Notes: generated by a model not told the origin, from the sequence alone. Counted from the stretch's first letter, positions 6,305 to 59,918 are shown. The stretch is DNA of 64,000 nt from Ramlibacter tataouinensis TTB310 (GCF_000215705.1 NC_015677.1:3298001-3362000); one strand, 5' to 3'. Made by a program: numbers and translations.

Positions 6305-6324
6305 GATCGGACTATTTCACATGA

Positions 6325-6353
6325 GAGTCGGACTCCCGATTGTAGTGAGTCCG
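6325..6353. promoter_or_regulatory. GAGTC/GACTC repeat cluster between the AraC and SDR genes
   Basis: GAGTC at 6325-6329 and GACTC at 6331-6335 form an 11-bp palindrome. CGGACTC (6329-6335) pairs exactly with GAGTCCG (6347-6353) across 11 bases. The cluster sits in the 101-bp divergent intergenic region and is the obvious operator candidate for the AraC regulator. No consensus promoter is clear around it. Confidence 0.45.
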
Positions 6354-6405
6354 GCCCGGACGACCTATCGTTTGGCCCCGACCAACCATCCCCCAAGGAG
6401 TCCTC

Positions 6406-7155: not shown

Positions 7156-7236
7156 ATTGCCAGAGACGGCACGCTCGGCATCGAAGTGAGGTGCGCCAGG
7201 CGGATCGCATCGCGCGCTCTGGCGTAAGCTCGGCCG

Positions 7237-8892
7237 ATGCCCTCCAAGCTCTCCCGCTGGCTCCCCTTCCTCAACTGGCCGCGGCCCGACGCGGCCCTGC
7301 TGCGCGGCGAGGTCGCCGCCGCGCTGACGGTGGCCGTGGTGATGATCCCGCAATCGGTGGCCTATGCCGGCCTGGCGGGCATGCCGCTGGTCACGGGCCT
7401 GTACGCCACCTTCCTGCCGGCCCTGCTGGCCGTGCTGTTCAGCAGCTCCACCCGGCTGTCGGTCGGGCCCTCGGCGCTGAGCAGCGTGCTGGTGGGCGCC
7501 TCGCTGGTGGGCCTGGCCGAGCCGGGCAGCGCGCAATGGGTGGCACTGGCTGTGTGGCTGGCGCTGCTGGCAGGCATGCTGCAGCTGGCGGTGGGCGCCA
7601 GTGGCGCGGCCTGGGTGCTCAACCTGGTCAGCTCGCCGGTGCTGACGGGCTTCAGCCAGGCGGCGGCCTTCCTCATCATTGCCTCGCAGTTGCCCGCCCT
7701 GCTCGGCCTGCAAGGCCCGCTGTCCGGCCTGCTGGAGGCACCGCGCTTCGACCTGGAAGCCCTGGGCTACGGCCTGGGCGCGCTGGCGCTGTTCGAGCTC
7801 GGCAAGCGCCGGCTGCCGCGGCTGCCCATGGTGCTGCTGGTGCTGGCCGCCGCCGCCGCGCTGAGCGCGATCACCGGCTACGCGGCGCGCGGCGCGGTGG
7901 TGGGCGCCCTGCCGGTGGGCCTGCCCTCGCCCTACTGGCCCGGGCTGCCGGGGTGGGAGCGCTTCCTGGCCCTGGTGGCGCCGGCGCTGGTGATCGCGCT
8001 GGTCAGCTCGCTGGAGATGGCGGCCAGCGCCAAGATCGAGGCGCAGCGCGACGGCCGCCGCTGGGACGCCAACCAGGACCTGATCGGCCAGGGCGTGGGC
8101 AAGCTGGCCTCGGCATTCTCGGGCAGCTTTCCCACCAGCACCTCGTTCTCGCGCTCGGCCATCACGCTGTACGCCGGCGCCCGCACCGGCTGGGCCACGG
8201 TGGCCACCACGGCGCTGGTGCTGCTGGTGCTGCTGTTCCTCACGCCCGCCCTGTACCACGTGCCCTCGGCGGTGCTGGCCGCCGTGGTGGTGGCCGCGGT
8301 GCTGGGCCTGGTCAAGCCGCGCAGCCTGCTGGGGCTGTGGCGCATCCAGCCGATGGAGGCGGTGACCGCCGGCGTCACCTTCGCGGTCACCCTGCTGTCG
8401 GCGCCGCGCATCTACTGGGGCGTGCTGGCCGGGGTGGTGCTGGGCCTGGCGCATTTCCTGTACCACCGGCTGCACCCGCGCATCATCGAGGTCGGCCTGC
8501 ACCCCGACGGCAGCCTGCGCGACCGGCACCTGTGGAAGCTCGCTCCGCTGGCCGACCGCATGTACGCGCTGCGCATGGACGACGAGCTGGATTTCGCCTC
8601 GGCCAGCGCCTTCGAGCGCGCCATCGTGGACCACCTGGCGGCCCACCCGGACGTGCAGCACGTGTGCCTGTTCGCCCAACCCATCAACCGCATCGACGCC
8701 ACCGGCGTGGAGGTGTTCACCCAGCTGCGCAAGACGCTGGAGGCGCGCGGCATCACCCTGCACATCAGCGGCCTCAAGCTGCCGGTGGAACAGGTGCTGC
8801 GGCGCGCCGGCGCGCTGCACGACAGCCCGCTGCTGCGCATGTACCGCACCGACGTGGAGGCGCTGCTGGCGTTCGGCCGGCTCAGCCCCTGA
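7237..8892 (+). CDS. SulP-family inorganic anion transporter with STAS domain
   Basis: A 551-residue membrane protein. The first 400 residues form about 12 hydrophobic segments, including the SulP signature region PQSVAYAGLAGMPLVTGLYATF near residue 30 and SFPTSTSFSRSAI in the middle. The last 130 residues are a STAS domain (VCLFAQPINRIDATGVEVFTQL). SulP proteins carry sulfate, bicarbonate or other anions, usually with sodium or proton coupling. With a sulfatase 2 kb upstream, sulfate is an attractive substrate, but the two are not in one operon and bicarbonate is equally possible. Confidence 0.88.
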   Translation: MPSKLSRWLPFLNWPRPDAALLRGEVAAALTVAVVMIPQSVAYAGLAGMPLVTGLYATFLPALLAVLFSSSTRLSVGPSALSSVLVGASLVGLAEPGSAQWVALAVWLALLAGMLQLAVGASGAAWVLNLVSSPVLTGFSQAAAFLIIASQLPALLGLQGPLSGLLEAPRFDLEALGYGLGALALFELGKRRLPRLPMVLLVLAAAAALSAITGYAARGAVVGALPVGLPSPYWPGLPGWERFLALVAPALVIALVSSLEMAASAKIEAQRDGRRWDANQDLIGQGVGKLASAFSGSFPTSTSFSRSAITLYAGARTGWATVATTALVLLVLLFLTPALYHVPSAVLAAVVVAAVLGLVKPRSLLGLWRIQPMEAVTAGVTFAVTLLSAPRIYWGVLAGVVLGLAHFLYHRLHPRIIEVGLHPDGSLRDRHLWKLAPLADRMYALRMDDELDFASASAFERAIVDHLAAHPDVQHVCLFAQPINRIDATGVEVFTQLRKTLEARGITLHISGLKLPVEQVLRRAGALHDSPLLRMYRTDVEALLAFGRLSP

Positions 8893-43823: not shown

Positions 43824-46718
43824 ATGAGCGACACACCCCAGCAACCCGGCCTGAACAGCCTGCCCAAATCCTTCGAGCCCGCCCCGATCGAGGCCCGCTG
43901 GGAACCGGTCTGGGAGCAGCGCGGCTACGGGCGCGCCGGCTGGCGCGGCACCGGCCAGGCCCGGGAGGGGGAGCCCTCCTTCGCCATCCAGCTGCCGCCG
44001 CCCAACGTGACCGGCACGCTGCACATGGGGCACGCGTTCAACCAGACCATCATGGACAGCCTGACGCGCTACCACCGCATGCGCGGCTTCAACACGCTGT
44101 GGGTGCCGGGCACGGACCATGCGGGCATCGCCACCCAGATCGTGGTGGAGCGCCAGCTGCAGCAGCAGGGCCTGTCGCGCCATGACCTGGGCCGCAAGAA
44201 CTTCGTGGCCAAGGTCTGGGAGTGGAAGCAGCAGTCGGGCAACACCATCACCCGGCAGATGCGCCGAATGGGCGACAGCGTGGACTGGTCGCGCGAGTAC
44301 TTCACCATGGACGAGCGGCTCTCGCGCATCGTCACCGAGACCTTCGTGCAGCTGTACCAGCAGGGCCTGATCTACCGCGGCAAGCGCCTGGTGAACTGGG
44401 ACCCCGAGCTCAAGACGGCGGTGAGCGACCTGGAGGTGGAGAGCGAGGAGGAGGACGGCTTCCTCTGGCACATCGCCTACCCCCTGGCGGGCGACGGCGG
44501 CTCGCTGACGGTGGCCACCACGCGCCCGGAAACCCTGCTGGGCGACGTGGCCGTGATGGTGCACCCCGAAGACGAGCGCTACAAGCACCTGGTGGGCAGG
44601 CAGGTGAAGCTGCCGCTGTGCGACCGCGAGATCCCGGTCATCGCCGACGAGTACGTGGACCGCGAGTTCGGCACCGGCGTGGTCAAGGTCACGCCGGCGC
44701 ACGACGCCAATGACTACGCCGTGGGCCAGCGCCACGGCCTGCCCCTGGTCGGCGTGCTGACGCTGGACGCCAGGATCAACGACAACGCGCCGGCCGCCTA
44801 CCGCGGGCTGGACCGTTTCGTGGCGCGCAAGAAGGTGGTGGCCGACCTGCAGGCGCAAGGCCTGCTGGTCGAGACCCGCAAGCACAAGCTGATGGTGCCG
44901 CGCTGCGCCCGCACCGGCCAGGTGGTGGAGCCCATGCTCACCGACCAATGGTTCGTCGCCATGACCCAGGTCGGCCAGGGCGACGCCACCGGCAAGTCCA
45001 TCGCGCAGAAGGCCATCGATGCCGTGCAGTCGGGCCAGGTGCGCTTCGTGCCCGAGAACTGGGTCAATACCTACAACCAGTGGATGAACAACATCCAGGA
45101 CTGGTGCATCTCGCGCCAGCTCTGGTGGGGCCACCAGATCCCGGCCTGGTACGACGAGGCGGGCAAGGTCTACGTCGCGCGCAGCGAGGCCGAGGCGCAG
45201 GCCCAGGCGCCGGGGCGGCAGCTGCGCCGTGACGAGGACGTGCTGGACACCTGGTATTCCTCGGCCCTGGTGCCCTTCTCCACCCTGGGCTGGCCCGACA
45301 AGACCCAGGACCTGCAGCTGTACCTGCCTTCCAGCGTGCTGGTGACCGGCTACGACATCATCTTCTTCTGGGTCGCCCGGATGATCATGATGACCACCCA
45401 TTTCACCGGCCAGGTGCCGTTCCGCGACGTGTACATCCACGGCCTGGTGCGCGATGCCCAGGGCCGCAAGATGAGCAAGTCCGAAGGCAACGTGCTGGAC
45501 CCGGTTGACCTGATCGACGGCATCCCGCTGGCGCCGCTGCTGGACAAGCGCACCACCGGCCTGCGCAAGCCCGAGACCGCGCCGCAGGTGCGCAGGAACA
45601 CCGAGAAGGAATTCCCCGAGGGCATCCCGGCCTACGGCGCCGACGCGCTGCGCTTCACCTTCGCCTCGCTGGCCTCGCTGGGCCGCAGCATCAACTTCGA
45701 CGCCAAGCGCTGCGAGGGCTACCGCAACTTCTGCAACAAGCTCTGGAACGCCTCGCTGTTCGTGCTGATGAACTGCGAGGGCTTCGACTGCGGGCTGAAG
45801 GAGCACACCAAGGCCGAGTGCCAGCCCGGCGGGCCGGCGCACGGCTACATGCGCTTCTCGCAGGCGGACCGCTGGATCAGCTCGGCGCTGCAGAAGGCCG
45901 AAGCCGCGGTGGCGCAGGGCTTCGCCGACTACCGCCTGGACAACGTCGCCAACGCCATCTACGACTTCGTCTGGAACGAGTACTGCGACTGGTACCTGGA
46001 GATCGCCAAGGTGCAGCTGCGCGAAGCGGCCCGGGACGGCGACGAGGGCCGGCAGCGCGCCACCCGGCGCACGCTGATCCGCACGCTGGAAGCCATCCTG
46101 CGGCTGGCGCATCCCGTCATCCCCTTCATCACCGAGGAGCTGTGGCAGAAGGTGGCGCCGGTGGCCGGCCTGCCGGGCGAGTCGGTCAGCATCGCCCGCT
46201 ACCCGCAGGCGCAGCCGGAGAAGATCGATGAGGCGGCCATCGCCTGGGTGGAGCGGCTCAAGGCCCTGGTGGACGGCTGCCGGCAGCTGCGAGGCGAGAT
46301 GAACGTCTCGCCCGGCACGCGCCTGCCGCTGTATGCCGTCGCGGAAAGCACCACGGCGGCCGCCTTCCTGCGCGAGGCCGCGCCGGTGCTGCAGGCACTG
46401 GCCAAGCTGAGCGAAGTCCAGGTGTTCGACGACGAGGCGGCCTGGGCCGCGGCGGCCCAAGCCGCGCCGGTGGCGGTGGTCGGCGATGCGCGGCTGTGCC
46501 TGTTCATGGAGATCGACGTGGCCGCGGAGAAGGCGCGCATCGCCAAGGAGGCGGCGCGGCTGGAGGCGGAGCTGGCCAAGGCCAACGGCAAGCTGGCCAA
46601 CCAGGCCTTCGTGGCCAAGGCGCCGCCGGCGGTGATCGAGCAGGAACGCCAGCGCATCGCGCAGTTCGCGGCCACGCTGGACAAGCTGAAGGGACAGCTG
46701 CTGCGGCTGGGCGCGTGA
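43824..46718 (+). CDS. valS: Valyl-tRNA synthetase
   Basis: A 964-residue class I synthetase. GTLHMGHAF is the HIGH motif and RKMSKSEGN the KMSKS motif. The editing domain lies between them ([19 protein letters not shown]), and a C-terminal coiled-coil arm ([35 protein letters not shown]) closes the protein. It charges tRNA-Val and edits threonine. The ATG has no clear ribosome site because the terminator stem lies right before it. It is convergent with the acquired operon at 46734. Confidence 0.95.
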
Positions 46719-46733
46719 GCGGCTGGCAAGGCT

Positions 46734-47909
46734 TCAGTCAACGCTGGCCCACGCTTGCGCGATATCCTCCATGAGGTCCGTCGGTTCCTCAAGGCCGATC
46801 CAGAACCGTACGACCTGCCTGATCTCCGGATCAACGGCGCGCAGGCGAATGACCGCAGGATGAGACTCCTCGAAAAGCATGACCAGGCTCAACGGCCCTC
46901 CCCACGAATAGCCGATGTGGAAGAGATCGAGGCCTTCGACGATGTGCTCGGCAGGGCACGTTCCCATGGCGACGCTGATCAGACCGGGGGCGCTGGTGAA
47001 GTAGCGCTTCCAGTGCGCATGACCAGGACTGGATGCCAATGGCGGGAAGTGCACGCGGCGCACGCCCGGTTTGCCGTCGAACCATGGTGCAATCTGCTCG
47101 GCCGCGGACCTGCTGTGGCTGTAGCGCATCCTCAACGTGGGTAACCCCCGGAGCACCAGGTAGGCGTCGTCGGAGCTCACGTTGAGCCCGAGGTAGTGTC
47201 GGGTCAGCTTCAGCTGGCATATCAGTGCGGCATTGGCAGCACTGACGGAACCCAGCACGACGTCGGATCCTCCGGACTGCAACTTGGTCAAAGCCTGAAC
47301 GGACACATCGGCCCCGAGTGCAAACGCTTGCAGATGCAGTCCGGCCGCATACGTGTTGTCGATTGCCACCGTCACGTTCGCGGCTTTGGCTGCAGCAATC
47401 AGCGCCCCGAGATCGGGCACTTCAAGGCTCACGGAGCCGACGGCTTCGATCCAGACGAGCCGCGTCCTTGGACCCAGTGCTGCGGCGAGGGATGACGCTT
47501 CGCCGGGTTCATACCGGCGAAGTCCGATGCCAAAACGCGCCAGGAGGGTTTCGGCCATCTGCACGGCGGAACCGTAGAAGTTGGCCGGCATGGCCACCTC
47601 GTCTCCCGCCTTCAGCAGTGCCACGCAGGTGACGTAGATCGCCGCCAATCCGGAGGGAACCAGGATGGTTTCGCCGGCGCCCTCCAGGCGCGCAAGTCGC
47701 CTTTCCAGTTCGCGGGTCGTGGGTGTTCCCTCCCTGCCATACGGCGAAGGGTCAGCATCCCAGCCAGTCCGCCGCAGCTTCTCGACGCTCTCGAGCAGCA
47801 CGGTCGATGCGCGGTGGACCGCCGGCAGCGTGGCGCGGAACCCCCCCTGCTGATTGGGCTGGATCAAGTCGGTCTGGCTCGCCCGGTTCGCGCGCGAAGT
47901 CTTTGGCAT
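46734..47909 (-). CDS. PLP-dependent Cys/Met-metabolism-type enzyme (operon gene 9)
   Basis: A 391-residue fold type I PLP enzyme. YGREGTPTTRELERRL (about 57-72), PSGLAAIYV (about 85), AIDNTYAAG (about 182-190) and the PLP lysine K209 in VQALTKLQSGGSDVV match the cystathionine beta-lyase/gamma-synthase group. The substrate could be cystathionine-like, an O-acyl homoserine, or a novel beta- or gamma-substituted amino acid. The second of two ATGs (47909) has better spacing from AGGAG. Last gene of the operon that starts at 54998. The 32-base gap before it is the largest in the operon. Confidence 0.85.
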   Translation of the reverse strand: MPKTSRANRASQTDLIQPNQQGGFRATLPAVHRASTVLLESVEKLRRTGWDADPSPYGREGTPTTRELERRLARLEGAGETILVPSGLAAIYVTCVALLKAGDEVAMPANFYGSAVQMAETLLARFGIGLRRYEPGEASSLAAALGPRTRLVWIEAVGSVSLEVPDLGALIAAAKAANVTVAIDNTYAAGLHLQAFALGADVSVQALTKLQSGGSDVVLGSVSAANAALICQLKLTRHYLGLNVSSDDAYLVLRGLPTLRMRYSHSRSAAEQIAPWFDGKPGVRRVHFPPLASSPGHAHWKRYFTSAPGLISVAMGTCPAEHIVEGLDLFHIGYSWGGPLSLVMLFEESHPAVIRLRAVDPEIRQVVRFWIGLEEPTDLMEDIAQAWASVD

Positions 47910-47941
47910 CATCCCTCCTCGCACCTTCGTCCGGCCATCCC

Positions 47942-48781
47942 TCACCCCAGCAGGGTGAAGAACAGGCCCACGGTGACGGCCAACGTGCAAAGCATGCGCA
48001 CGAAGCCAACGCTCTCCTTCAGGAACACTGCGCCGAAGATCACCCCGAAAACCACGCTTACCTCGCGTAGCGCGGAGACCAACGCGGGCTGGCTGCGCGA
48101 AAGTGCGACGATGATCAGTGCGTGCGCGGCGGACATGACGAGCCCATTGACCAGGCAGGTCCGTCCACGTGCCTTCGCGTATCGCGCCAAACGCACAGGG
48201 GACTTCAGCAAGGCTGCCATGAGCATCAGCAATCCCTCGAGAACGAACAGCCACAAGATATATGCGTAGGCGTGGCCGCTCACGCGGGCTCCTTTGCTGT
48301 CCAGCAACGTGAAGGTGGCGATGAATGCGGAGGTTCCGAGCGCAAAGCCGATGGCCGCCCTTGCATGCGACGTCGGGAAGCCGCGATCGAAAGTAAGGCC
48401 CATGATGCCGACCGCGATTGCCAAGATGCCAAGGTATTGCCACGCACTCAGGCTCAGGCCCATGGCGACCGATGCCAGAGCCACGAACAGCGGGGTAGCT
48501 CCGCGTGCGATCGGATACACCTGGCTCATCTCCCCATACTTGTAGCCGAGGCTGAGGCAGATGCGGTATCCCGCGTGCAGTATTGCCGAAACGCCGAGGA
48601 TCGGCCAGGCCCGGCTGTTGACCCCAGGAAGGAGGGGGAGCGCCAATGCGCACAGCACGGCGGAGGTCGCGGCCATCAGCGTCAGGGACAGGAACTTGTC
48701 TTCATCCTTCTTCACGAAGAGGTTCCATCCTGCGTGCATGAGGGCCGAAAGCATCACGATGGAAAGCGAGATCGGGTCCAT
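47942..48781 (-). CDS. EamA/DMT-family transporter (operon gene 8)
   Basis: A 279-residue membrane protein with about ten hydrophobic segments and two EamA repeats: YPIARGATPLFVALASVAMG in the first half and LREVSVVFGVIFGAVFLKES in the second. It is distinct in sequence from the other DMT gene at 14100. In this operon it is the likely exporter or importer of the product or precursor (inference). The start is three bases past the SDR stop. Confidence 0.85.
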   Translation of the reverse strand: MDPISLSIVMLSALMHAGWNLFVKKDEDKFLSLTLMAATSAVLCALALPLLPGVNSRAWPILGVSAILHAGYRICLSLGYKYGEMSQVYPIARGATPLFVALASVAMGLSLSAWQYLGILAIAVGIMGLTFDRGFPTSHARAAIGFALGTSAFIATFTLLDSKGARVSGHAYAYILWLFVLEGLLMLMAALLKSPVRLARYAKARGRTCLVNGLVMSAAHALIIVALSRSQPALVSALREVSVVFGVIFGAVFLKESVGFVRMLCTLAVTVGLFFTLLG

Positions 48782-48784
48782 GCT

Positions 48785-49537
48785 TCAGATGGCGTGATCC
48801 TGAGGCAGGACGACGAGTTGCGGGATGTTGATGTGCGCAGGCTGGCACATGACCCAGTAAATCGCATCGGCCACATCTGCGGCGCTCAATGGCCGCGAGA
48901 TGTTCCGTGAAACGGAGGGATGGACGTCCAGATCGCGATGAAGCTCCGTCCTGACCAGGCCCGGTGCGATGCAGGATACGCGAACGCCACTCCTTGCGAG
49001 TTCGATGCGAAGCGCTTCACAAAGCGCCTCGATGGCGTGTTTGGTTCCGGCGTAGCCGCCAGCCGTCTCGCGTACCTTGTGACCCATGACGCTCGTGGTG
49101 TGGATCAAGTGCCCGGAATTCTCCTGCTGGAAGTGCTTGAGGAACGTGTAGGTGAACCGATACGCTGCCTCGACGTTGATGCGGACCATCTGGCAGAGCA
49201 GGTCCAGGTCGATCTGATCGATCGTGCCTGTATGGTTGATTCCGGCATTGTTGATCGCGTAGTTGACGGTACCGAAGTGCTTCAGGGCCATCTCCAGGAG
49301 GCGCGAGGCCGCGTCCCCGTCCACGAGATCGCCCTCAAGCCATACGACGTCGGGGAACTTCTGTGCGGTGGCGGCCAACCTGGCTGCCCGCCTGCCGTGA
49401 AGAACGAGCTTCACGCGAGCTGCAGCCAGCTTTTCGGCGGCTGCCATGCCAATGCCGCTCGATGCGCCGGTGATCACGGCCACGCGGCCGGCCAGTGGGT
49501 ACGCGGTCGCGTCGGGCAGGACGGGGCCGGTCACCAT
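48785..49537 (-). CDS. SDR-family oxidoreductase (operon gene 7)
   Basis: A 250-residue classical SDR: TGASSGIG near residue 24, NNAGINHTG, HTTSVMG for the catalytic Ser, and YAGTKHA for the Tyr/Lys pair. PGLVRTEL is also conserved. It should reduce a ketone or oxidise an alcohol on the pathway product. The ATG at 49537 has GGAG eight bases upstream; an ATG 13 codons earlier would overlap the C26 gene. NADP or NAD preference is not clear. Confidence 0.86.
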   Translation of the reverse strand: MVTGPVLPDATAYPLAGRVAVITGASSGIGMAAAEKLAAARVKLVLHGRRAARLAATAQKFPDVVWLEGDLVDGDAASRLLEMALKHFGTVNYAINNAGINHTGTIDQIDLDLLCQMVRINVEAAYRFTYTFLKHFQQENSGHLIHTTSVMGHKVRETAGGYAGTKHAIEALCEALRIELARSGVRVSCIAPGLVRTELHRDLDVHPSVSRNISRPLSAADVADAIYWVMCQPAHINIPQLVVLPQDHAI

Positions 49538-49542
49538 CGTGG

Positions 49543-50349
49543 TCACTCCGTTCTGGCGCGCAGGCGATCGGTGCACGCGGCACGGAAGGCGGCGGTGATC
49601 GCGCAGTCAAGCGGGCTGGAGCCGTCCATCCATTCGATGTGCCACTGCACTCCGAGTGCAAAGGCATGGCCCTGCACGGAGATGGCCTCTACCACCCCGT
49701 CCTCCGCGTGCGCCTGGGCAAGGACGCGGGAGCCCAGACGGGAGACGCCCTGTCCATGCAGCGAGTTGACGCGAAAGTCGCTCTCGCCAAGATGCGCGGC
49801 ACGCGCCAGAGCCTCCAGTTGCGAACCCCTCGCCAAGCGCAGCGTATGCCTCGGCTGGTAACGCTGCTCGTAGGGGAGCTGCTTATCGGATCGGTGATCC
49901 ATGTTTCCCGCGATTGCATGAAGCTCCTGGTGCAGATCGCCGCCGAAAGCGACGTTGAGTTCCTGCATGCCACGGCAGATCCCCAGAATCGGAACATTGC
50001 TATCGAGGCAGTCCAAGATGAGCGGCAGTGTTGTCATGTCCCGCGCGTAGTCCGCACTGCCGAGCGGCTGAGTCTTGATGAAGGATCCACCCTGCAGGCG
50101 TACCCCCACGTTGCTAGGGGAACCGGTCAGCAACAATCCGTCCAGCCGCTCGACCAGGGCGGACAGCCCGCCCGGCGCCGACGGTGCTGCCGGGACTGCC
50201 GGCAGGAGCACGGGGACGGCATCGAGCGCGTTCACCACGTAGTCCACGTACTTGTGGAAGGCGGTATGGTGGGGCGTCGGCGGATAGTCCCCGAAAGCGA
50301 TGTTCCGCAGGCAGCACGACACACCGACGACGGGGCGGGCGGCGGTCAT
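49543..50349 (-). CDS. Class-I glutamine amidotransferase-like hydrolase, peptidase C26 type (operon gene 6)
   Basis: A 268-residue protein of the PuuD/gamma-glutamyl hydrolase group. The nucleophile C125 is in GICRGMQELN, and the His of the triad in GVQWHIEW near residue 235; NSLHGQGV is also conserved. The family cleaves gamma-glutamyl bonds, for instance gamma-glutamyl-GABA. In a biosynthetic operon it could remove a gamma-glutamyl protecting group from an amine (inference by analogy to glutamylated intermediates). The ATG overlaps the stop of the nucleotidyltransferase gene. Confidence 0.85.
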   Translation of the reverse strand: MTAARPVVGVSCCLRNIAFGDYPPTPHHTAFHKYVDYVVNALDAVPVLLPAVPAAPSAPGGLSALVERLDGLLLTGSPSNVGVRLQGGSFIKTQPLGSADYARDMTTLPLILDCLDSNVPILGICRGMQELNVAFGGDLHQELHAIAGNMDHRSDKQLPYEQRYQPRHTLRLARGSQLEALARAAHLGESDFRVNSLHGQGVSRLGSRVLAQAHAEDGVVEAISVQGHAFALGVQWHIEWMDGSSPLDCAITAAFRAACTDRLRARTE

Positions 50350-51380
50350 CGGAACAAAGCCCGCGTGGCCGGTGTGCGAGCGCCGTAAGCCTTCTTGCGA
50401 TAGTCGATCTCCATGTCTGAGTACTCCCCATCCCCTTTTTCCATCAGCTCGTCGATTGCGCTGCATGCTGCCATGCCCGAGGGCACTTCGGCGTAGGCCC
50501 CCAGGCGGTGCGCGCCTGCCGCAAAGATGTCATCGACGAAATCCATCAGCGCAAGGATGTACTCCTTGATTTCGCTTGCAGAGAGCCCGAAGCCGGCGCT
50601 TAGCAGGCGCAGGTACCTGGCGAGGAGCTTCGGTTCCGTTGCGCAGCGTTGGGCGGACTTGATGATCCACTTGCGATGGTAGTTGGTGTTCCCGCAAAGA
50701 TGCGTGTAAGCCTGGAACTGGGCAACCATGTTTTCGCGGGCGAGGTCGGCGCAGCGGACAAGGTCTCCTTCGTCCCAGGCGCCCAGGATGTCCAGGAGCA
50801 CCGAGAAGTCCGACGCCTTCCACCGATAGAGAAGGTATTGAAAGCGCACCAACCCTATCCTCGCCCGCAAGTCAGCCAGGTACTCGCCTCCAGCGAGGTC
50901 CCTTGCGTGAAACAGCCGATGCACAAAAGCCATGTCCCTGACGCCGAGGTATTTCGTCAGCAGCATGAGGGACCGCGTCGCATACGCAAAAGTCTCTCCG
51001 AGCTCTCGGGCAAGCGCCTCGACTTCCGACAACGTCCGGTATTCAATATCCACCTTGACGTGCGTGCCAGGAACGACGGTGTGGATCAGGAAGACTTCGG
51101 ACGCGGGGTCGGACCCCTTCAGGATGGAACGGTCAGGCGTTAGGACGCGGTAGTGCCTCCGGACGTCGATTTCGTGCCCCTGCCGCAGCCTCTCGGTGAT
51201 GACGTGGACGTCGATGTCCGAGTAGGCGTTGCCGATCCCCTCGATCAGCGAGCCGCCGATGAAGGCACCATCACCCGGTCTCAGGTAGGCGTTCTCGAGC
51301 ACGAAAGGTACCGGCAATCGCAGCGCCCCTTGGAGCAGAGGAATGGTCTCGTCTGCGTGCAGCAACGTTCTGTCAACCAT
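50346..51380 (-). CDS. Nucleotidyltransferase-fold protein (operon gene 5)
   Basis: A 344-residue protein of unknown function. Residues 38-60 (GAFIGGSLIEGIGNAYSDID) carry the GS-x10-D-x-D pattern of polymerase-beta-like nucleotidyltransferases: G42, G43, S44, D55, D57. A later acidic pair, D111 and E113 in VKVDIEYRT, fits the third metal ligand. The C-terminal 200 residues appear all-helical and I cannot assign them. It could transfer NMP to a small molecule or protein. The start overlaps the end of the NDK-like gene by eight bases, at TCCATGGTTGA. Confidence 0.7.
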   Translation of the reverse strand: MVDRTLLHADETIPLLQGALRLPVPFVLENAYLRPGDGAFIGGSLIEGIGNAYSDIDVHVITERLRQGHEIDVRRHYRVLTPDRSILKGSDPASEVFLIHTVVPGTHVKVDIEYRTLSEVEALARELGETFAYATRSLMLLTKYLGVRDMAFVHRLFHARDLAGGEYLADLRARIGLVRFQYLLYRWKASDFSVLLDILGAWDEGDLVRCADLARENMVAQFQAYTHLCGNTNYHRKWIIKSAQRCATEPKLLARYLRLLSAGFGLSASEIKEYILALMDFVDDIFAAGAHRLGAYAEVPSGMAACSAIDELMEKGDGEYSDMEIDYRKKAYGARTPATRALFR

Positions 51381-52368
51381 GGAAGACCTCCCGGAGCGAG
51401 CCCCGGATCGCGGCGCCCTGGGACTTCCAAGTCTGCAAGACGTCGTCGACCGAGCGCGCGTCCAAGATCGGGGACGCGCCCGCACGGTCATGCTTGATCA
51501 GTTCGGCCGACAGCGTCAGTCCATCCCACGAATCCAGGTCGATCCGGGCGGCGCACAAGGCCGAGCGCACCACGTCCAGCGGCAATTGCGCGCCTCGCTC
51601 GACGGCCCAGGCCAACTCGGCGGCGATCGATACCTCATCCTGGTGCGTCAGGCGCCGCAACACCTCTGCGGGGTCCACACTGTGCCGCTCGCTGGAACTT
51701 TCCAACTCCGTGACCTTCTGCCCCAGTGCGCCGTCCGGCACAGGGTCGCCGCCGCACCCCGGGATGCACGCAAGCAGGAGCGGCCGGAGTTCCTCAAGCG
51801 GCAGGAGGATTCCGAGTTCACGAACCAAGTCAGCCGGCTCGTCCGGACAGTGAACGAAGCCCAGCATCCTGTTGTGCATCGCCATGGCGGTCCGCAGGTG
51901 CTCGGCGCGGCGCCGCTCGGGGTGGGCTGATCCTTTGAGAGCCCACAGGTGAACGCATGCGGGCACGGTGGCACCGGCAGGGCCGCGCAGAAGCACCAGG
52001 AGAGAGTTGCTCTTGGCATTGACGCGGTGAGTCAGCCGCACGCGGTCCAGGGTGGCTGCGTTCCACTGGAAACGCCAGATGGCATTTGCATCGGCACGCC
52101 CGATGGCCACCGGCGTGTGCCCGACCGGGATGTAACCATGACGTGTGACGAAATCCAGCGCGACCCTGGTCAATCGGCGAGCGATCGCTTCGGGCTTGAT
52201 GACGAGGAACGTGTGCCCGTAGACGAAGTCGGGAATGCGCGGGCCGTGGGTCTCAAGCAGCGCCGACCAGCACTCATCGGCCGCGAATTCCGACGCATAG
52301 AGTTCGGCCTTGCGCTCCTGGACTGTCAGCATCGGCAGCGCGCTCGCGTATTCGAGACCTTGCGTCAC
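51373..52368 (-). CDS. Nucleoside-diphosphate-kinase-like protein with C-terminal extension (operon gene 4)
   Basis: A 331-residue protein. Residues 52-190 follow the NDK pattern: TFLVIKPEAIARR (K58), ALKGSAHPERRRAEHLRT, and VHCPDEPADLVRELG with H173 at the place of the phospho-histidine. The usual NDK is about 140 residues; here an N-terminal 45 and a C-terminal 140 residues are extra and unrecognised. The insert between the two motif groups also differs from ordinary Ndk. It is probably a specialised kinase, not the housekeeping enzyme. The end and start overlap its neighbours. Confidence 0.7.
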   Translation of the reverse strand: MTQGLEYASALPMLTVQERKAELYASEFAADECWSALLETHGPRIPDFVYGHTFLVIKPEAIARRLTRVALDFVTRHGYIPVGHTPVAIGRADANAIWRFQWNAATLDRVRLTHRVNAKSNSLLVLLRGPAGATVPACVHLWALKGSAHPERRRAEHLRTAMAMHNRMLGFVHCPDEPADLVRELGILLPLEELRPLLLACIPGCGGDPVPDGALGQKVTELESSSERHSVDPAEVLRRLTHQDEVSIAAELAWAVERGAQLPLDVVRSALCAARIDLDSWDGLTLSAELIKHDRAGASPILDARSVDDVLQTWKSQGAAIRGSLREVFHG

Positions 52369-53132
52369 TGTCGCGCTCCGCCCGCGGAACTTCGCGGATC
52401 ATTGTTCGGGGAGATGTTCGTGACTCTCGTGCCAAGCGCATCGTAGTAGAACATCATGGTTCGCGGCGAGTGAGAACGGCAGAGTTCGCGGATCCTGCCG
52501 ATCCGCTGCAGGCTGTGCCGCTCCGCCACGCGGATCGCCTTCAAAGTGGACACCGTGCCCTCGAGATCATCGTTGACCACGTGGTAATGGTGCTCGTCGA
52601 TGTACCCAAGGTCCTGAAGGGCCATCTGCTCCTTGATATAAAGCTCCTCGCCCGTTTCGGTTCCGCGCCCGTGCAGCCGGCGCAACAACTCCGAGAACGT
52701 CGGCGGCACTATGAATATGCCGACCACCTGCTCCCGGAACTGCCGTCTGAGATTGATGTACAGCTGCGGCGTGTAGTCGAACACCAGGTCGCGGCCCTCC
52801 GCGATCGCAGCCTCCAGAGGTGCGATCGGCGTGCCGTAGTACTTTCCCTCCGACGGGTTGACCCACTGTGCAAAGGCTTTGGCTTCGACCAGCCGCCGGA
52901 ACTCTCCGCGCGAGACGAACTGGTAAAGGCCGCTCTCGTCTGCGCGGTGTTGCGGCCGGGGCTTGCGCGTTGTGATGTTTGCCACGTAGCCAAGGTCCGA
53001 GCACTCCTGCCGCCATCTCTTGATCAGCGTGGTCTTGCCCGTGCCCCCCGGGCCCGAGAGGACATAGAAGGTCGCGCCGGGGTTGGCACGAAAGTCGATG
53101 TCAGGGACGGAACTCGTGCTGGAATCAACCAT
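52365..53132 (-). CDS. Guanylate-kinase-like protein (operon gene 3)
   Basis: A 255-residue P-loop kinase. GPGGTGKTT at residues 27-35, NITTRKPRP (53-60), YYGTP (98-102), IFIVPPTFSELLRRLHGRGTE and VVNDDLEGTVSTL all match guanylate kinase in order. Housekeeping enzymes are about 205 residues; the extra 45 at the C-terminus are not recognised. An acquired copy beside an NDK-like kinase and a nucleotidyltransferase suggests action on a nucleotide-like pathway intermediate or supply of a GTP-type donor. It overlaps the transketolase C half by eight bases. Confidence 0.78.
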   Translation of the reverse strand: MVDSSTSSVPDIDFRANPGATFYVLSGPGGTGKTTLIKRWRQECSDLGYVANITTRKPRPQHRADESGLYQFVSRGEFRRLVEAKAFAQWVNPSEGKYYGTPIAPLEAAIAEGRDLVFDYTPQLYINLRRQFREQVVGIFIVPPTFSELLRRLHGRGTETGEELYIKEQMALQDLGYIDEHHYHVVNDDLEGTVSTLKAIRVAERHSLQRIGRIRELCRSHSPRTMMFYYDALGTRVTNISPNNDPRSSAGGARQ

Positions 53133-54093
53133 GGAGGATGGCCTCTCCCGGCCGCGAGAGGCCGCGCAGCCATGCCGCGACTCTGGTCGCGATGGCCTCG
53201 GGTTGGAGGCCGAAGAGCGCGTGAAGGTCCTCGGTACTGCCCACGGGGGCGAACACCCCCGGCACGCTGATGCTCAGCATCGGCACGGGCGTGCCGCGTA
53301 CGACGACGGAGGCGACGGCGCTGAACAAGCCTCCTTCCCGCTGGTGATCCTCGACGCACACGAGGCGACGCGTCTCCCTGCAGGCCCGCGATATCGCCTT
53401 TACGTCAAGGGGCGCGAGACTGGACATGTTCAGCACGCGCGCCTCTATCCCTTCGCGTGCGAGCAGTGAAGCGGCCTCGAGCGCACCGTGCGCAGCGAAG
53501 CCCATGCTGAAGAGCGTGACGTCCTCGCCTTGCCGGAGTTCGGTAGCCTTGCCGAATTCAAAGGGCTGGGTGTGCGGTTGCAGCGAGGGGACCGGTATGC
53601 GATTGAGGCGAATGAAGACCGGGCCGACGTGTTCATGCGCGGCGCGGACCGCTTGTGCCGTCTCCGTGGCGTCTGAGGGTGCGGCGATCCGCAGACCGGG
53701 CAGCACGCGCATCCAGGCGATGTCCTCGATCGCGTGATGGGTGGGCCCCAGCGACCCGTAAGCGAAGCCTGCGCTGTTTCCGCATAGCTTGACGTTGGCA
53801 TCGGACAGTGCGATGTCGACCTTGATCTGCTCGAGGGCGCGGCCGGTGAGGAAGCAAGATGCCGCACAGACAAATGGGATCATCCCTGCGTTTGCAAGGC
53901 CTGCCGCAACCCCGACCATGTTCTGCTCGGCGATTCCGGCGTCGAAGAGTCGATCCGGGAATCGTGCCAGGAAGCCGGCGGCGCTGCTGGACGAAATGGA
54001 ATCGTTCACCACCATGCACACGCGAGCGTCCGTCGCCGCCAGATCCACGAGGGTGGCGGCGAAACTCGCGCGGGGATCTTCGGTAGCGTTCAT
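53125..54093 (-). CDS. Transketolase, C-terminal half (operon gene 2)
   Basis: A 322-residue protein with the pyrimidine-binding and C-terminal domains of a transketolase. The catalytic Glu is in FDAGIAEQNMVGVAAGLA, and YGSLGPTHHAIEDIAWMRVLPGLRI is the usual substrate-side block. With the N-terminal half encoded just upstream it forms a split transketolase, a form seen in catabolic and secondary pathways. It needs thiamine diphosphate. The start overlaps the N half by ATGA. Confidence 0.88.
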   Translation of the reverse strand: MNATEDPRASFAATLVDLAATDARVCMVVNDSISSSSAAGFLARFPDRLFDAGIAEQNMVGVAAGLANAGMIPFVCAASCFLTGRALEQIKVDIALSDANVKLCGNSAGFAYGSLGPTHHAIEDIAWMRVLPGLRIAAPSDATETAQAVRAAHEHVGPVFIRLNRIPVPSLQPHTQPFEFGKATELRQGEDVTLFSMGFAAHGALEAASLLAREGIEARVLNMSSLAPLDVKAISRACRETRRLVCVEDHQREGGLFSAVASVVVRGTPVPMLSISVPGVFAPVGSTEDLHALFGLQPEAIATRVAAWLRGLSRPGEAILHG

Positions 54094-54998
54094 TCGTGAG
54101 CAGCTGCCGCACCAAGCTCTCTAAAGGCCAGCTCCGCCTCGGCGCTGGTGGGCAGCTTGTGATGCCATGCCGCCTGCCCCTCCATGAAACTGACGCCCTT
54201 CCCTTTGCGGGTCCGGGCAAGGATGCAGCTGGGACGCCCCTTCTGCAGAGGTAGGCCGTCCAGGCACGCGAGAATCTGTTCCGCGCTGTGGCCGTCAACC
54301 TCCATCACCGACCAGCCAAACGCCCTCCACTTGTCCGCGAGCGGCTCCAAGCGGCACACCGACTCCGTGGCACGTCCCTGCTGCAGGCCGTTGCGGTCTA
54401 CGATGACCGTGAGATTGTCGAGGCCATGGGTGGCCGCCAGCATAGCCGCCTCCCAGTTGCTTCCCTCCTGCAATTCGCCATCCCCGGTGAGAACGAATGT
54501 CCGGCGGTCCGAACGGTGCAGGCGCGCCGCCAGGGCTGCGCCGACCGCGAAGGGAAGCCCGTGTCCGAGCGCTCCAGTGCACGTTTCGATGCCAGGGCTG
54601 TGGGCGGACGGATGACCTGCAAGCGCACCGTCTAGGCGTCCGTAATTGTCGAGAATCGATGCCGGCCACCAACCTAGCTCAATCAGAACACTATAAAGAG
54701 CAAGTGCTGCATGTCCTTTGCTCAAAATAAACCGGTCTCGGTCGGGGTGCTCGCTTTGCACGCATGGCTTCCTAAGGACGCCTGCGTAAAGAGCGGAAAT
54801 GAGGTCGGCCGCTGAGAAATCCGGACCGAGGTGGCCGAATTCGCTGCTCGAGGTAACCGCCAGGCAGCGAAGTCGGACCCGGTGTGCGATGGCGCTCGAA
54901 AATGCAGCGCGAGTTTGCAGAGATGCTTGGCGGTGCTGCTCCTGCTCTTGCTCTTGCGAATCGGTTTCCTGAAGATTTGGCGGGCTCGTCACACGCAT
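54090..54998 (-). CDS. Transketolase, N-terminal half (operon gene 1)
   Basis: A 302-residue protein with the thiamine-diphosphate-binding domain: FILSKGHAALALYSVL, AHSPGIETCTGALGHGLPFAVGAALA, the TPP motif GDGELQEGSNWEAAMLA and VDRNGLQQG. It pairs with the C half that follows. The ATG at 54998 has AGGAGGA upstream. The two-carbon donor and acceptor are unknown. It leads the nine-gene operon. The GC content falls noticeably across its first 200 bases and upstream. Confidence 0.88.
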   Translation of the reverse strand: MRVTSPPNLQETDSQEQEQEQHRQASLQTRAAFSSAIAHRVRLRCLAVTSSSEFGHLGPDFSAADLISALYAGVLRKPCVQSEHPDRDRFILSKGHAALALYSVLIELGWWPASILDNYGRLDGALAGHPSAHSPGIETCTGALGHGLPFAVGAALAARLHRSDRRTFVLTGDGELQEGSNWEAAMLAATHGLDNLTVIVDRNGLQQGRATESVCRLEPLADKWRAFGWSVMEVDGHSAEQILACLDGLPLQKGRPSCILARTRKGKGVSFMEGQAAWHHKLPTSAEAELAFRELGAAAAHE

Positions 54999-55034
54999 GA
55001 CATCTTCCTCCTGTATGGCAATGCAGCTCGGAGG

Positions 55035-55063
55035 ATTTAATCTGCAGATAATCGTTGACGCAA
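55035..55063 (-). promoter_or_regulatory. Candidate promoter of the nine-gene operon
   Basis: On the minus strand TTGCGT (-35, 55063-55058) and TTAAAT (-10, 55040-55035) are 17 bases apart, 37 bases before the transketolase start. Matches to the consensus are four of six each. The region is AT-rich compared with the surrounding DNA. No operator is obvious. Confidence 0.35.
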
Positions 55064-55179
55064 TCCTGTTAGATATGACAGGGGCTCTGCATGTGAGTCA
55101 GCATTAAGAGGAAATTGCAACCCCGAGGTTTGACCTGCAAGTTGGCCATTCGGCCGCACAAATTGAAACTACGGTTGAG

Positions 55180-55761
55180 ATGCTATACGACCCTTGGCTT
55201 GATCGCTGGCTTCCTCTGTTAACCCAGCAGTATTCGGGCGAGCTTGTCCTCGACATTGGTTGCGGTCATGGCGACGATCTCCGGACGCTCGCACGGGCCG
55301 GGTTCCGGGTAATGGGGTTCGACCGGTCGGCCGTTGCAGTTGCTCTCGCGCGCAGGCGTGTGCCAGGGGCGCGCATAGAACACACCGACTTTCGCGAGCG
55401 CTTTGCAGTGGGTGTTCCATCCCTTGGCGTAGTGGTAGCAAGTCTCTCGCTGCACTACTATCCGTGGGAGGAAACTTTAGCTCTCGTGGCGAAAATACGG
55501 AGCGCGCTTCGTCCTGGGGGGCTTTTACTTTGCCGACTCAACTCAACCACAGACCGCCACTTCGGTGCGGGCAGGGGCGATGAGATCGAGCCGAATCTTT
55601 TCCTGATCGATGGTCACCCAAAACGGTTTTTCGACGAGGAGTCCGTATCAGCGCTCTTTTCGAAGGGATGGAAAACACTGTCAATTCAACAGCTGCACAC
55701 ACGTAAATACCTGCGACAGAAGGCACTGTGGGAGGTCGTCCTTGAGCGTAGCGCTAATTGA
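55180..55761 (+). CDS. Class I SAM-dependent methyltransferase
   Basis: A 193-residue methyltransferase. Motif I is VLDIGCGHGDDLRTLA near residue 23, with GFDRSAVAVALAR after it; ASLSLHYYPWEETLALV and LRPGGLLLCRLNS give motifs IV and V. The acceptor is unknown. It is divergent from the nine-gene operon; in 55621-55680 I count 28 G/C of 60, against 40 of 60 in valS at 45001-45060. That composition suggests recent transfer. The start could lie upstream at an ATT codon, as the frame is open from 55108. It may belong with the operon or be a passenger. Confidence 0.75.
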   Translation: MLYDPWLDRWLPLLTQQYSGELVLDIGCGHGDDLRTLARAGFRVMGFDRSAVAVALARRRVPGARIEHTDFRERFAVGVPSLGVVVASLSLHYYPWEETLALVAKIRSALRPGGLLLCRLNSTTDRHFGAGRGDEIEPNLFLIDGHPKRFFDEESVSALFSKGWKTLSIQQLHTRKYLRQKALWEVVLERSAN

Positions 55762-56064
55762 CCGGTGCTAATTTACCCTGCGAATTGTCTTTCTACATAG
55801 GCATGTTGAAAGATGAGCATCATCGGTATTTTCAAAACATGCAGACGATGTCTTACGCCCTAAACTTCTATATGCCCGAGGTATCAGTCGGGGACTCACA
55901 AGCTCCGAGTTGTTTGAAAAGTTGTTTGAAAGTATTTCGCCGCACTCGGCGCCGCGACTCAGCTCCCAGATGAAGGAGCCGGCGAAAGCCGCAACCCAGC
56001 AAGCGCGGCAGCGCTGGAGACCGTCTTGGCGCCCGGTGTCTGGCTGAGGTAGCGCGACCTCTGG
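55762..56064. other. About 300 bases without a convincing gene
   Basis: Frames here are short and share no family pattern I know. The left part is AT-rich like the methyltransferase; from about 55960 the GC returns to the background. It contains a 12-base tandem duplication. No hairpin with a T-tract was seen between the convergent methyltransferase and dehydrogenase genes. This is the likely right edge of the acquired segment. Confidence 0.6.
55908..55931. repeat. 12-bp tandem duplication
   Basis: AGTTGTTTGAAA occurs twice in direct succession at 55908-55919 and 55920-55931. The sequence is AT-rich and lies at the edge of the acquired region. It may be a simple slippage product. Confidence 0.7.
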
Positions 56065-57060
56065 CTAGGGCGCCGACTCGCCAGCACCCAAGCTGTCCTC
56101 GAACGGCACGGGCTGGCTGGGAATCTGGTCGAAGATGCTGGTGCGCTGCGTGGTCAGGGTCTCGTGGATGCGGTGCGCCACGTACCAGCTGGCGCGCAGC
56201 CGGGCCTCGCGCGTGTGCGTGCCCAGACGCGGCGTCAGGTAAAGGTTGGACGCATCGTGCAGCGGCGAGCCCCGCGAGGCGAAGCCGGCCTCCGCGCCGT
56301 CCAACAGGCAAGCGTCGATGCGGCCGTCCGCCAGAGCGCGGGCCAGCGCTGCCGCATCGAACAGCTGCGAGCGGCTGATGCCCACCCACACCTGCCCGGG
56401 CTTGCAGTGCGCCAGCAGCTTGTCGTTGACGAAACCCTGGTAGCGCGAGGCATACATCACCTGCACGGACACGGCGTCGGCCTGGGACAGCACGTCGTTC
56501 AGTCCCAGCGGCTGGATGTGCAGGCGCGACCAGATCGGTGCCGTGTGGTGGATGGCCGGGTCGTAGCCGACCAGCCGCACGCCCAGCCCATGCAGCATGG
56601 GCGCGAGCGCGTGCGCCGTGGGCGCCAGGCCGACGATGCCTACCACGCTGCCGAACAGCTCGCGCCCGAGCCGCACTTCGGCATGCCGGTTGCCGCCCAA
56701 GGTGGCGCCGAGGCCGCGCCGGTACAGCAGTAGCAGGCTGGCCAGCAGGTACTCGGCGTTCGAGCGCACGTTCGCGGTACTGGCCTGTATCACCCGCACC
56801 TTGCGGTCGCGGCAGGCCTCCAGGTCGGTGTTGTCGGTGCCCACGTGCATGCGGGCGATGGCGCGCAGGCGCGGCGCGAAATCCAGGAATTCGCGCGTGA
56901 CCACCACCTTGCGCGGCAGCACCACGGCCTGGGCGTTGTAGAGGGCCTTGCGCAGCAGGCTGGCATCGATGGCCAGCTCGGGCCGGCACGCCACGGTGTG
57001 ACGCTCCTGCAGCCACGCCAGGGCCTCCGGCACCAGGCGCTCCGCAAGTAAGATGTCCAA
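56065..57060 (-). CDS. D-isomer 2-hydroxyacid dehydrogenase homologue with altered catalytic residues
   Basis: A 331-residue protein of the SerA/PdxB-like fold. The general architecture is kept, with a GTDNTDLEA block near residue 74 and the Arg of the triad in VGISRSQLFD (R230). However, the Rossmann GxGxxG is G144-x-A146-x-x-A149, and the catalytic His position in TPRLGTHT is R278. It may not bind NAD or catalyse the usual reaction. It is next to galU, but divergent. Another function, such as a regulator or corepressor-like role, is possible. Confidence 0.75.
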   Translation of the reverse strand: MDILLAERLVPEALAWLQERHTVACRPELAIDASLLRKALYNAQAVVLPRKVVVTREFLDFAPRLRAIARMHVGTDNTDLEACRDRKVRVIQASTANVRSNAEYLLASLLLLYRRGLGATLGGNRHAEVRLGRELFGSVVGIVGLAPTAHALAPMLHGLGVRLVGYDPAIHHTAPIWSRLHIQPLGLNDVLSQADAVSVQVMYASRYQGFVNDKLLAHCKPGQVWVGISRSQLFDAAALARALADGRIDACLLDGAEAGFASRGSPLHDASNLYLTPRLGTHTREARLRASWYVAHRIHETLTTQRTSIFDQIPSQPVPFEDSLGAGESAP

Positions 57061-59831: not shown

Positions 59832-59918
59832 GCCGGAGTGGTGAAATTGGTAGACGCAGGGGACTCAAAATCCCCCGCCCGAGAGGGCGTGCCGGTTCGA
59901 TTCCGGCCTCCGGCACCA
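59832..59918 (+). tRNA. tRNA-Leu (anticodon CAA)
   Basis: The 87-base gene folds into a long-variable-arm tRNA. The acceptor arm GCCGGAG pairs with CTCCGGC, followed by A and an encoded CCA. The D-arm AAATTGGTAGA and T-arm GGTTCGATTCC are standard. The anticodon loop CTCAAAA gives CAA, which reads UUG. It stands between cysM and the H-NS gene. Confidence 0.95.

Follow-up and report, generated by a model that had tools for sequence, protein, structure and literature searches.

Within a 64,000-nucleotide stretch of the genome of Ramlibacter tataouinensis TTB310 (NC_015677.1:3298001-3362000, hereafter the window; the genome is one complete contig of 4,070,193 bases) we have analysed an operon of nine minus-strand genes that encodes a split transketolase, a kinase with the guanylate kinase fold (Gmk-like), a protein related to nucleoside diphosphate kinase (NDK-like), a nucleotidyltransferase (NTase), a gamma-glutamyl hydrolase of the Peptidase C26 family, a short-chain dehydrogenase/reductase (SDR), a DMT/EamA transporter and a pyridoxal phosphate (PLP) enzyme. 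Together with an adjoining methyltransferase gene these genes form a block that is, judging from sequence comparison, one horizontally moving system. On balance we lean towards reading the island that holds the block as a horizontally acquired biosynthetic cluster whose product is a small metabolite that contains phosphorus, is exported and most likely acts as an antimetabolite. An original prediction, made from the sequence of the window, had described an acquired nine-gene operon that makes an exported product, and its interpretation is partly supported by the results given below.

Organization and transfer of the island

The genes of the island and its direct neighbours are listed with their coordinates in the window, their strand and the match or observation on which the description is based.

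46719-56064, no strand: island between valS and the 2-hydroxyacid dehydrogenase gene (congener comparison)
54090-54998, minus: TktN, split transketolase N-terminal subunit, binding thiamine pyrophosphate (TPP), first gene of the operon (PF00456, 143 bits)
53125-54093, minus: TktC, split transketolase C-terminal subunit (PF02779, 118 bits; PF02780, 98 bits)
52365-53132, minus: guanylate-kinase-fold kinase with altered acceptor site (PF00625, 84 bits)
51373-52368, minus: NDK-like protein (P0004) with C-terminal extension of ~130 residues (PF00334, 27.8 bits)
50346-51380, minus: putative nucleotidyltransferase (P0005), Pol-beta (KNT/LinB) type (Asp motif and predicted fold)
49543-50349, minus: Peptidase C26 / gamma-glutamyl hydrolase (PF07722, 190 bits)
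48785-49537, minus: SDR (PF00106, adh_short, 143.5 bits)
47942-48781, minus: DMT/EamA transporter, presumed exporter (PF00892, 56.5 bits)
46734-47909, minus: PLP enzyme (P0009) of the cystathionine beta-lyase type, accessory (PF01053, Cys_Met_Meta_PP, 270 bits)
55180-55761, plus: S-adenosylmethionine-dependent methyltransferase, divergently oriented, added cluster member (PF13649, 58 bits)
43824-46718, plus: valS, left neighbour of the island
56065-57060, minus: 2-hydroxyacid dehydrogenase gene, right neighbour of the island

The operon (46734-54998) fills 8.3 kb and the coordinates of its nine genes were confirmed to the base. From TktN to the PLP gene the junctions are overlaps of 4, 8, 4, 8 and 4 bases followed by gaps of 5, 3 and 32 bases, exactly as predicted. 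Eight of the nine proteins score over a Pfam cut-off, the NDK-like protein barely, and P0005 has no match that does. The lower GC content that had been claimed relative to the flanks was also found. The nine genes have a whole-gene GC content of 0.61-0.66 and a GC content at third codon positions (GC3) of 0.68-0.80, and the methyltransferase gene has a GC3 of 0.59, versus 0.96, 0.92 and 0.90 for valS, the 2-hydroxyacid dehydrogenase gene and galU, the three flanking genes measured.

A comparison with related genomes revealed what appears to be the empty site. In one congener (G198) the dehydrogenase gene (78% identity with 56065-57060 of the window) comes within ~50 bp of valS and is itself followed by galU, and in a second congener (G097) and in Paracidovorax G265 the distance from valS to galU is 150-160 bp. 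The empty site was thus seen in G198 and G097, two of the three congeners, as well as in Paracidovorax G265. None of the three congeners has a match to the nucleotidyltransferase, for which matches were found in two of 299 genomes of the family sample and in four of 398 of the phylum sample, the window's own genome counted in each.

The block itself recurs in distant genomes, which was the check named beforehand for a single acquired system and shows the grouping of the genes to be more than a chance arrangement. Scanning the genome contigs with the single NDK-like protein gave no match, and scanning with a three-row nucleotidyltransferase alignment gave nine loci; the latter scan will have missed copies because only two short peptide patterns were used. 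Six of the nine loci (L013-L018) carry the block of the window (type I) and three (L019-L021) are rhizobial with another gene set. The order TktN-TktC-Gmk-NDK-NTase-C26-SDR-DMT is identical in Paracidovorax oryzae (L015), Paracidovorax cattleyae (L016) and Photorhabdus caribbeanensis (L013). In Vreelandella neptunia (L017) the order is retained without the SDR, and the PLP enzyme and the methyltransferase are likewise unmatched in that locus. In Paracidovorax citrulli a contig end splits the block and the rest is found on a second contig (L010/L014 and L022, one genome, counted once). In total, type I is present in seven genomes, that of the window included and one copy being decayed. The hosts are soil-type, plant-pathogenic, insect-associated and marine bacteria. 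The NDK-like profile matched two of 12 Photorhabdus genomes.

The similarities between the copies do not follow those of the valyl-tRNA synthetase ValS. Between the window and P. caribbeanensis the NTase, C26, Gmk-like, TktN, TktC, SDR and DMT proteins are 58-70% identical, the NDK-like protein 45% and the methyltransferase 47%, versus 53% for ValS. For Paracidovorax these values are 41-67% for the cluster proteins versus 81% for ValS, and for V. neptunia 44-60% versus 56%. Low GC3, an empty site at valS and recurrence with similarities that do not track ValS therefore argue for one horizontally moving system.

Methyltransferase relatives (41-47% identical) adjoin the block in Paracidovorax, where the PLP gene lies on the opposite strand and is followed by the methyltransferase gene, and in P. 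caribbeanensis, where the methyltransferase gene precedes TktN. The methyltransferase of the window can therefore be considered the tenth member of the cluster, so that the nine predicted genes stand and the predicted size of the block does not. The start of this gene is uncertain because its relatives have a longer N-terminus.

Other features of the copies and of the insertion site were observed as well. The decayed copy of Photorhabdus asymbiotica (L018, 7997-11736, recovered again as L067) has no match to TktN or TktC, has the NTase and the C26 protein each in two frames and has methyltransferase and Gmk remnants in one frame. Adjoining the Vreelandella cluster (L017, 1-1017) are a LuxR-like fragment and a TraI-like acyl-homoserine lactone (AHL) synthase, both under cut-off (79 bits versus 292 for the synthase); the latter would fit a secreted metabolite. 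In the window, a low-GC stretch at 55762-56064, between the methyltransferase and dehydrogenase genes, forms the right edge of the island, and no integrase is present among the open reading frames listed there. Integration at a tRNA gene was considered and set aside, as the single tRNA-Leu (59832-59918) falls outside the island. The repeats assessed comprised 20 of the 33 families of direct repeats and 25 of the 46 pairs of inverted ones. Among those listed, one pair lies near both island edges (17 bases, inverted, 46739/56335, 88%), with its right arm inside the dehydrogenase gene.

Properties of the encoded proteins

The genome encodes its own guanylate kinase (166 bits), NDK (189 bits) and transketolase (516 bits, at 4022599) elsewhere. 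The corresponding operon genes are extra copies and not the housekeeping set, and the case raised beforehand against the prediction, that they would be the only copies, does not apply.

The Gmk-like protein belongs to the guanylate kinase family (PF00625, cut-off 25.2 bits) and has the P-loop, but it stays under the cut-off of the guanylate kinase equivalog TIGR03263 (129 versus 160 bits). All four cluster copies aligned to the genome's Gmk, that of the window included, have kept the P-loop and the TTRxPR stretch and have Q89, P102 and T121 in place of the E, S and D of the housekeeping enzyme; the same three residues are present in all five copies of a larger set. We take positions 89, 102 and 121 to be guanine-contact positions in Gmk structures. 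As these presumed contacts are altered, the acceptor has probably changed, and the kinase is, by its sequence, probably not a nucleotide-pool enzyme.

A similar picture emerges for the NDK-like protein. It has no NCBIfam match at E 0.01, and H173, D176, P59, R109, G146, R159 and E184 are identical in all 11 rows of an alignment of the genome's housekeeping NDK with ten NDK-like proteins. H173 is presumably the catalytic His and D176 its neighbouring Asp. A structural model with a predicted local distance difference test (pLDDT) value of 71 and a poor C-terminal part matches E. coli NDK in Foldseek (E 5.7e-5, template modelling score on the target 0.72). Having diverged outside the catalytic residues, the protein is probably not a nucleotide-pool enzyme either.

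P0005 is a nucleotidyltransferase according to its Asp motif and its predicted fold. The G-S/T...D55xD57...D111 motif is kept in all nine aligned rows, leaving the Asp triad intact, and the predicted fold is of the KNT/LinB type, the nearest folds being antibiotic nucleotidyltransferases. A sequence search of the PDB with the nucleotidyltransferase profile gave nothing at E 1.

The best PDB match of TktN is the split-chain transketolase 6yak (227 bits). The TPP-binding domain and the pyrimidine and C-terminal domains lie on two adjacent chains and the TPP motif is present, as expected of a split transketolase. All four cluster copies aligned have the GDGELQEGSNWEAAM...DRN stretch in TktN and the GIAEQN and G(P/A)THH stretches in TktC. 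The C26 protein matches 7d4r (204 bits) and PuuD (6vtv, 161 bits) in the PDB and has the GICRG and QWHIEW stretches of the Peptidase C26 family, presumably those of the Cys/His/Glu catalytic triad. It scores 176 bits versus the PuuD family and falls outside the gamma-glutamyl-CDP-amidate hydrolase equivalog NF045546 (51 bits, cut-off 250).

The DMT protein is, as predicted, a presumed exporter. It was matched in all six other type I copies that cover this end (L010, L013, L015-L018) and reaches 139.5 bits versus the phosphonate-utilisation associated TIGR03340, under the cut-off of 288. P0009 has MetC structures as its best PDB matches and keeps the PYGR, ALTKLQSGG, SWGGP and RFW(I/L)GLE stretches in all four copies (the window and three Paracidovorax), so that both the family match and the characteristic stretches of cystathionine beta-lyases are present; versus the equivalog NF005456 it remains under cut-off (386 bits, cut-off 500). 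A second homologue, 48% identical, is encoded in the genome. There is no close copy of P0009 in the Photorhabdus or Vreelandella loci. A Cys/Met PLP gene in the former (L013, 17598) was considered as the missing gene and rejected, since it encodes a housekeeping-type O-acetylhomoserine enzyme (914 bits versus 790).

A partly shared module outside type I

Scattered homologues had been named beforehand as evidence against a single system. The close homologues are not scattered, but remote relatives of the NTase and the NDK-like protein are also found in other settings. Ten loci carry an NTase relative outside type I (L008, L009, L019-L021, L035, L036, L040-L042). One of these (L040 in G995, type II) has the order NTase-C26-NDK-like, followed by a major facilitator superfamily (MFS) protein, together with a C-S lyase of the PatB family (392 bits, cut-off 340). 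Another (L041 in G905, 287-7683) encodes on one strand an NDK-like protein, a class III aminotransferase, a formyltransferase, a Thymidylate_kin protein, GGACT, the NTase and an MFS protein. Here, the gamma-glutamyl remover next to the NTase is GGACT, which is of a different family than C26. The same operon also encodes a 355-residue protein without Pfam match.

The rhizobial loci L009, L019, L020 and L021 combine the NTase with C26 and a Tmk-like kinase (Pfam was run on L020 only), and the first three also have ATP-grasp, aminotransferase-type and MFS genes. On Agrobacterium plasmid pAt1 (L008) the NTase relative is accompanied by an annotated dTMP kinase, ATP-grasp and orotidine decarboxylase genes, with no match to C26. 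As side observations, two paralogues of the NTase are present in the Neorhizobium loci, and in the Mesorhizobium locus adenylation, condensation and P450 genes surround the NTase, as judged by eye.

Taken together, a kinase and/or NDK-like protein, the NTase, a gamma-glutamyl remover (C26, once GGACT) and an exporter appear to form a partly shared module that is recurrent but not constant. The claim that the operon encodes nucleotide-handling proteins thus holds for the folds, which recur together with the gamma-glutamyl remover, but probably not for the Gmk-like and NDK-like proteins as enzymes of the nucleotide pool.

Proposed pathway

In the pathway that we envisage, the two-subunit transketolase would move a two-carbon unit, yielding a ketose-type (phosphate) skeleton. 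The Gmk-like kinase and the NDK-like protein, the latter via phosphohistidine, would phosphorylate a non-nucleotide or modified-nucleotide acceptor, and the NTase would attach a nucleotide as a handle or protecting group. An intermediate may bear a gamma-glutamyl group, either as amine protection or as a glutamine amide, that C26 would take off. The SDR would tailor the product, in some genomes joined by the C-S lyase-type PLP enzyme and the methyltransferase, and the DMT protein would export it. The phosphorylated atom, the added nucleotide and the glutamyl attachment point in this scheme are those that we infer.

Several observations weigh against such a horizontally transferred biosynthetic cluster. 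Its transfer was deduced with ValS as the sole comparator. The third congener (G272), with ~106 kb between valS and galU, is uninformative on the empty site. In the order-level sample the nucleotidyltransferase was found in three of 399 genomes, the window's included. We recognised neither a gamma-glutamyl ligase nor genes for self-resistance or regulation in the block of the window, and there is no unmistakable scaffold-builder of any known natural-product class. The Pfam match of the NDK-like protein is marginal (cut-off 27), and the SDR, the PLP enzyme and the methyltransferase are missing from some type I copies. Outside type I, L035, L036 and L042 match no other cluster protein of the window over the stretch covered; this comparison was made with the window's proteins, among which the Tmk and GGACT families are not represented. 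With a gamma-glutamyl remover in six of the ten loci (L009, L019-L021, L040, L041), a Tmk-like kinase in six, an NDK-like match in just two and no further cluster protein of the window in three, the module is therefore recurrent and not constant.

Alternative explanations

Part of the block resembles the route to the O-methyl phosphoramidate of Campylobacter, in which the steps after the first involve a nucleotidyltransferase, a gamma-glutamyl hydrolase and a small kinase. By this logic the NDK-like protein would N-phosphorylate glutamine via phosphohistidine, the NTase would form a nucleotidyl-glutamine, and the release of glutamate by C26 would yield a nucleoside diphosphoramidate for further phosphorylation by the Gmk-like kinase. 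Indeed, four enzyme classes (His-transfer kinase, NTase, gamma-glutamyl hydrolase and small kinase) pair one to one, C26 weakly matches the gamma-glutamyl-CDP-amidate hydrolase, and a gamma-glutamyl remover lies near the NTase in six of the ten loci outside type I. However, C26 scores far higher versus PuuD, the transketolase, SDR and PLP enzyme have no role in that pathway, and the rhizobial stretches covered have no NDK-like match. Moreover, the Campylobacter enzyme families for the other three steps presumably differ from those of the window, which counts against this route as well. According to the available part of the source, its first step is the N-phosphorylation of glutamine (PMC6429109). 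We regard the phosphoramidate route as unlikely. A thiol-bearing higher sugar is, in our opinion, less likely still. Following the logic of lincosamides, the transketolase would extend a sugar, the kinase and the NTase would activate it, C26 would strip a glutathione-type conjugate of its gamma-glutamate, the PLP enzyme would free the thiol as a C-S lyase and the methyltransferase would cap it. The preserved stretches of P0009, the PatB-type C-S lyase of a different fold in the type II locus and the conservation of the methyltransferase are all in line with this. Nevertheless, no close PLP gene is found in the Photorhabdus and Vreelandella loci, nor a methyltransferase in the latter, no glycosyltransferase or glutathione transferase was recognised in the block, and NDP-sugars are, to our knowledge, not usually made by NTases of the Pol-beta fold.

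Alternatively, cystathionine beta-lyase might be the target of the product and the PLP enzyme a copy of it that confers self-resistance, with the rest of the block making an inhibitor of methionine biosynthesis. PatB/MalY can act as a cystathionine beta-lyase, and the occurrence of the non-homologous MetC-type and PatB-type enzymes in two related clusters, the second P0009 homologue in the genome and the opposite orientation of the PLP gene in Paracidovorax would fit. Against it stands the lack of the PLP gene from the Photorhabdus and Vreelandella loci, and we consider this explanation very unlikely. Hardly more can be said for a catabolic role, in which the operon would break down a sugar, nucleotide or phosph(on)ate from the environment and the DMT protein would import it; to this reading we attach a marginally lower probability yet. 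Two-subunit transketolases do occur in sugar catabolism and the DMT protein resembles TIGR03340, albeit below cut-off, but no regulator, polymer hydrolase or aldolase was recognised in the block. In addition, the NTase and two kinases consume nucleotides, a TraI-like gene adjoins the Vreelandella copy and NDK-like relatives lie near AMP-binding, aminotransferase or PEP-mutase-like genes. Finally, an anti-phage or nucleotide-based defence island is extremely improbable and was set aside on the PADLOC results: nine of the ten proteins have no match at E 0.001, and the methyltransferase matches only parts of larger models (mad2, 56 bits; MTase_III, 20 bits). Antibiotic nucleotidyltransferases score higher for P0005, and the transketolase, SDR, PLP enzyme and C26 would be out of place in such an island.

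NDK-like relatives on plasmids

NDK-like relatives without a detected NTase copy were found on nine plasmids, eight from Streptomyces and one from Enterobacter; eight of the nine neighbourhoods were viewed and six of the proteins aligned. The neighbourhoods vary, and among their contents are genes of the AMP-binding and aminotransferase kinds and a PEP-mutase-like gene (PEP, phosphoenolpyruvate). The latter, on a plasmid of Streptomyces scopuliridis (L047, 131-12993), has the EDKIFPKRNS stretch, lies ~11 kb from the NDK-like gene and scores 313 bits versus a cut-off of 319.6. Together with genes for phosphoribosyl pyrophosphate synthetase and glyceraldehyde-3-phosphate dehydrogenase it makes this locus a candidate phosphonate cluster. 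The Enterobacter chuandaensis plasmid (L007, 6987-19224) carries genes for the NDK-like protein, NTP_transf_5, a 2-hydroxyacid dehydrogenase, an aminotransferase and MFS, and in addition genes for a DUF2817 protein and for two redox enzymes annotated as iron-containing. For its aminotransferase no PatB model is present among the matches listed (25 of 63 families).

A phosphonate cluster that starts from PEP mutase was considered for the type I and II clusters and rejected. TIGR02320 was over cut-off in none of the six genomes searched (of eight with type I or II), with matches below cut-off in five, and the EDKx5NS motif is absent from the window and 12 related loci. One match below cut-off, of 273 bits in a 702-residue frame, lies in Paracidovorax G265 (C44, 135607-136422, L069) on a contig other than that of the cluster.

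Implications

The split transketolase, C26, SDR, DMT protein, PLP enzyme of the cystathionine beta-lyase type and nucleotidyltransferase fold are of already known kinds. Not found in the open-licence literature searched were the combination of genes, the repurposed Gmk and the exchange of C26 for GGACT. The two probably repurposed kinases could serve as test cases for the way in which nucleotide-pool enzymes gain new acceptors.

A bolder and rather doubtful proposal is that the guanylate kinase and NDK folds of pool enzymes have been remade as phosphotransferases acting on a glutamyl-tethered substrate, with a nucleotide added by the Pol-beta NTase and the glutamate removed by C26 or GGACT. 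The outcome would be an antibiotic, either a phosphoramidate or a phosphorylated compound of the nucleotide type, that has a skeleton made by the transketolase and is exported. If true, this module would be the basis of a broader class of proteobacterial clusters that has gone unrecognised, and the NDK-like part of it is also found in Streptomyces.

Clusters without genes for polyketide synthases, non-ribosomal peptide synthetases, ribosomally synthesized and post-translationally modified peptides or PEP mutase are likely to escape ordinary genome mining. A signature consisting of a divergent NDK and/or small kinase, a Pol-beta NTase, a gamma-glutamyl remover and an exporter could find them in bacteria as far apart as Paracidovorax, Photorhabdus, Vreelandella and rhizobia. 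The cluster would be a new source of an antimetabolite, provided that its product is indeed one.

Comparison with known systems

In the open-licence literature no described cluster with this gene set was found, in line with the original prediction, although one pair of its genes, NDK-like and NTase, does occur in the argolaphos cluster (see below). The word transketolase does not occur in the available text of PMC9731981, in which antiSMASH was used. The genus Photorhabdus, to which two type I copies belong, makes small nucleoside-type antimetabolites, namely ADG (PMC9239236) and 4'-thiothymidine (4'sT, PMC12691670). The former is attributed to adgB-E and the latter to a radical SAM cluster in the portions of these papers that are available. 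Both were rejected as the product on a comparison by text only, the words transketolase and nucleotidyltransferase being absent from both texts.

The two-chain layout of TktN and TktC is that of the split-chain transketolase 6yak, with the difference that the pair in the window sits in a biosynthetic-looking operon. Late removal of a gamma-glutamyl group is carried out by BtrG in butirosin biosynthesis and by PuuD in polyamine breakdown. The window's C26 protein is of the PuuD family and the GGACT of L041 is presumably of the BtrG type, but unlike in these protection systems no gamma-glutamyl ligase was recognised in the block of the window. The Campylobacter O-methyl phosphoramidate pathway, whose first step is described in PMC6429109, shares the series of kinase, nucleotidyltransferase and gamma-glutamyl hydrolase, with a weak match to the C26-type hydrolase. 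It differs in having no transketolase and in decorating the capsule rather than yielding an exported small molecule.

The argolaphos (alp) phosphonate cluster of Streptomyces monomycini encodes, in the part of the paper available, the NDK-like protein AlpE (291 aa; named once, in a table) and the nucleotidyltransferase AlpM (cd05403), which the authors propose to cytidylylate a phosphonate for activation (PMC8976061). Its Table 1, in that same part, has no transketolase, Gmk-like kinase or C26, unlike the block of the window, and the cluster has PEP mutase and phosphonate enzymes whereas the block has none (PMC8976061). The likeness, drawn by gene description only, lies in the NDK-like protein, nucleotidyltransferase, aminotransferase and MFS, and AlpK, AlpL, AlpE, AlpN and AlpM are in fact the gene kinds of the Enterobacter plasmid cluster (PMC8976061, available part). 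By analogy, argolaphos and the plasmid loci loosely tie the NDK-like family to small phosphorus-bearing products.

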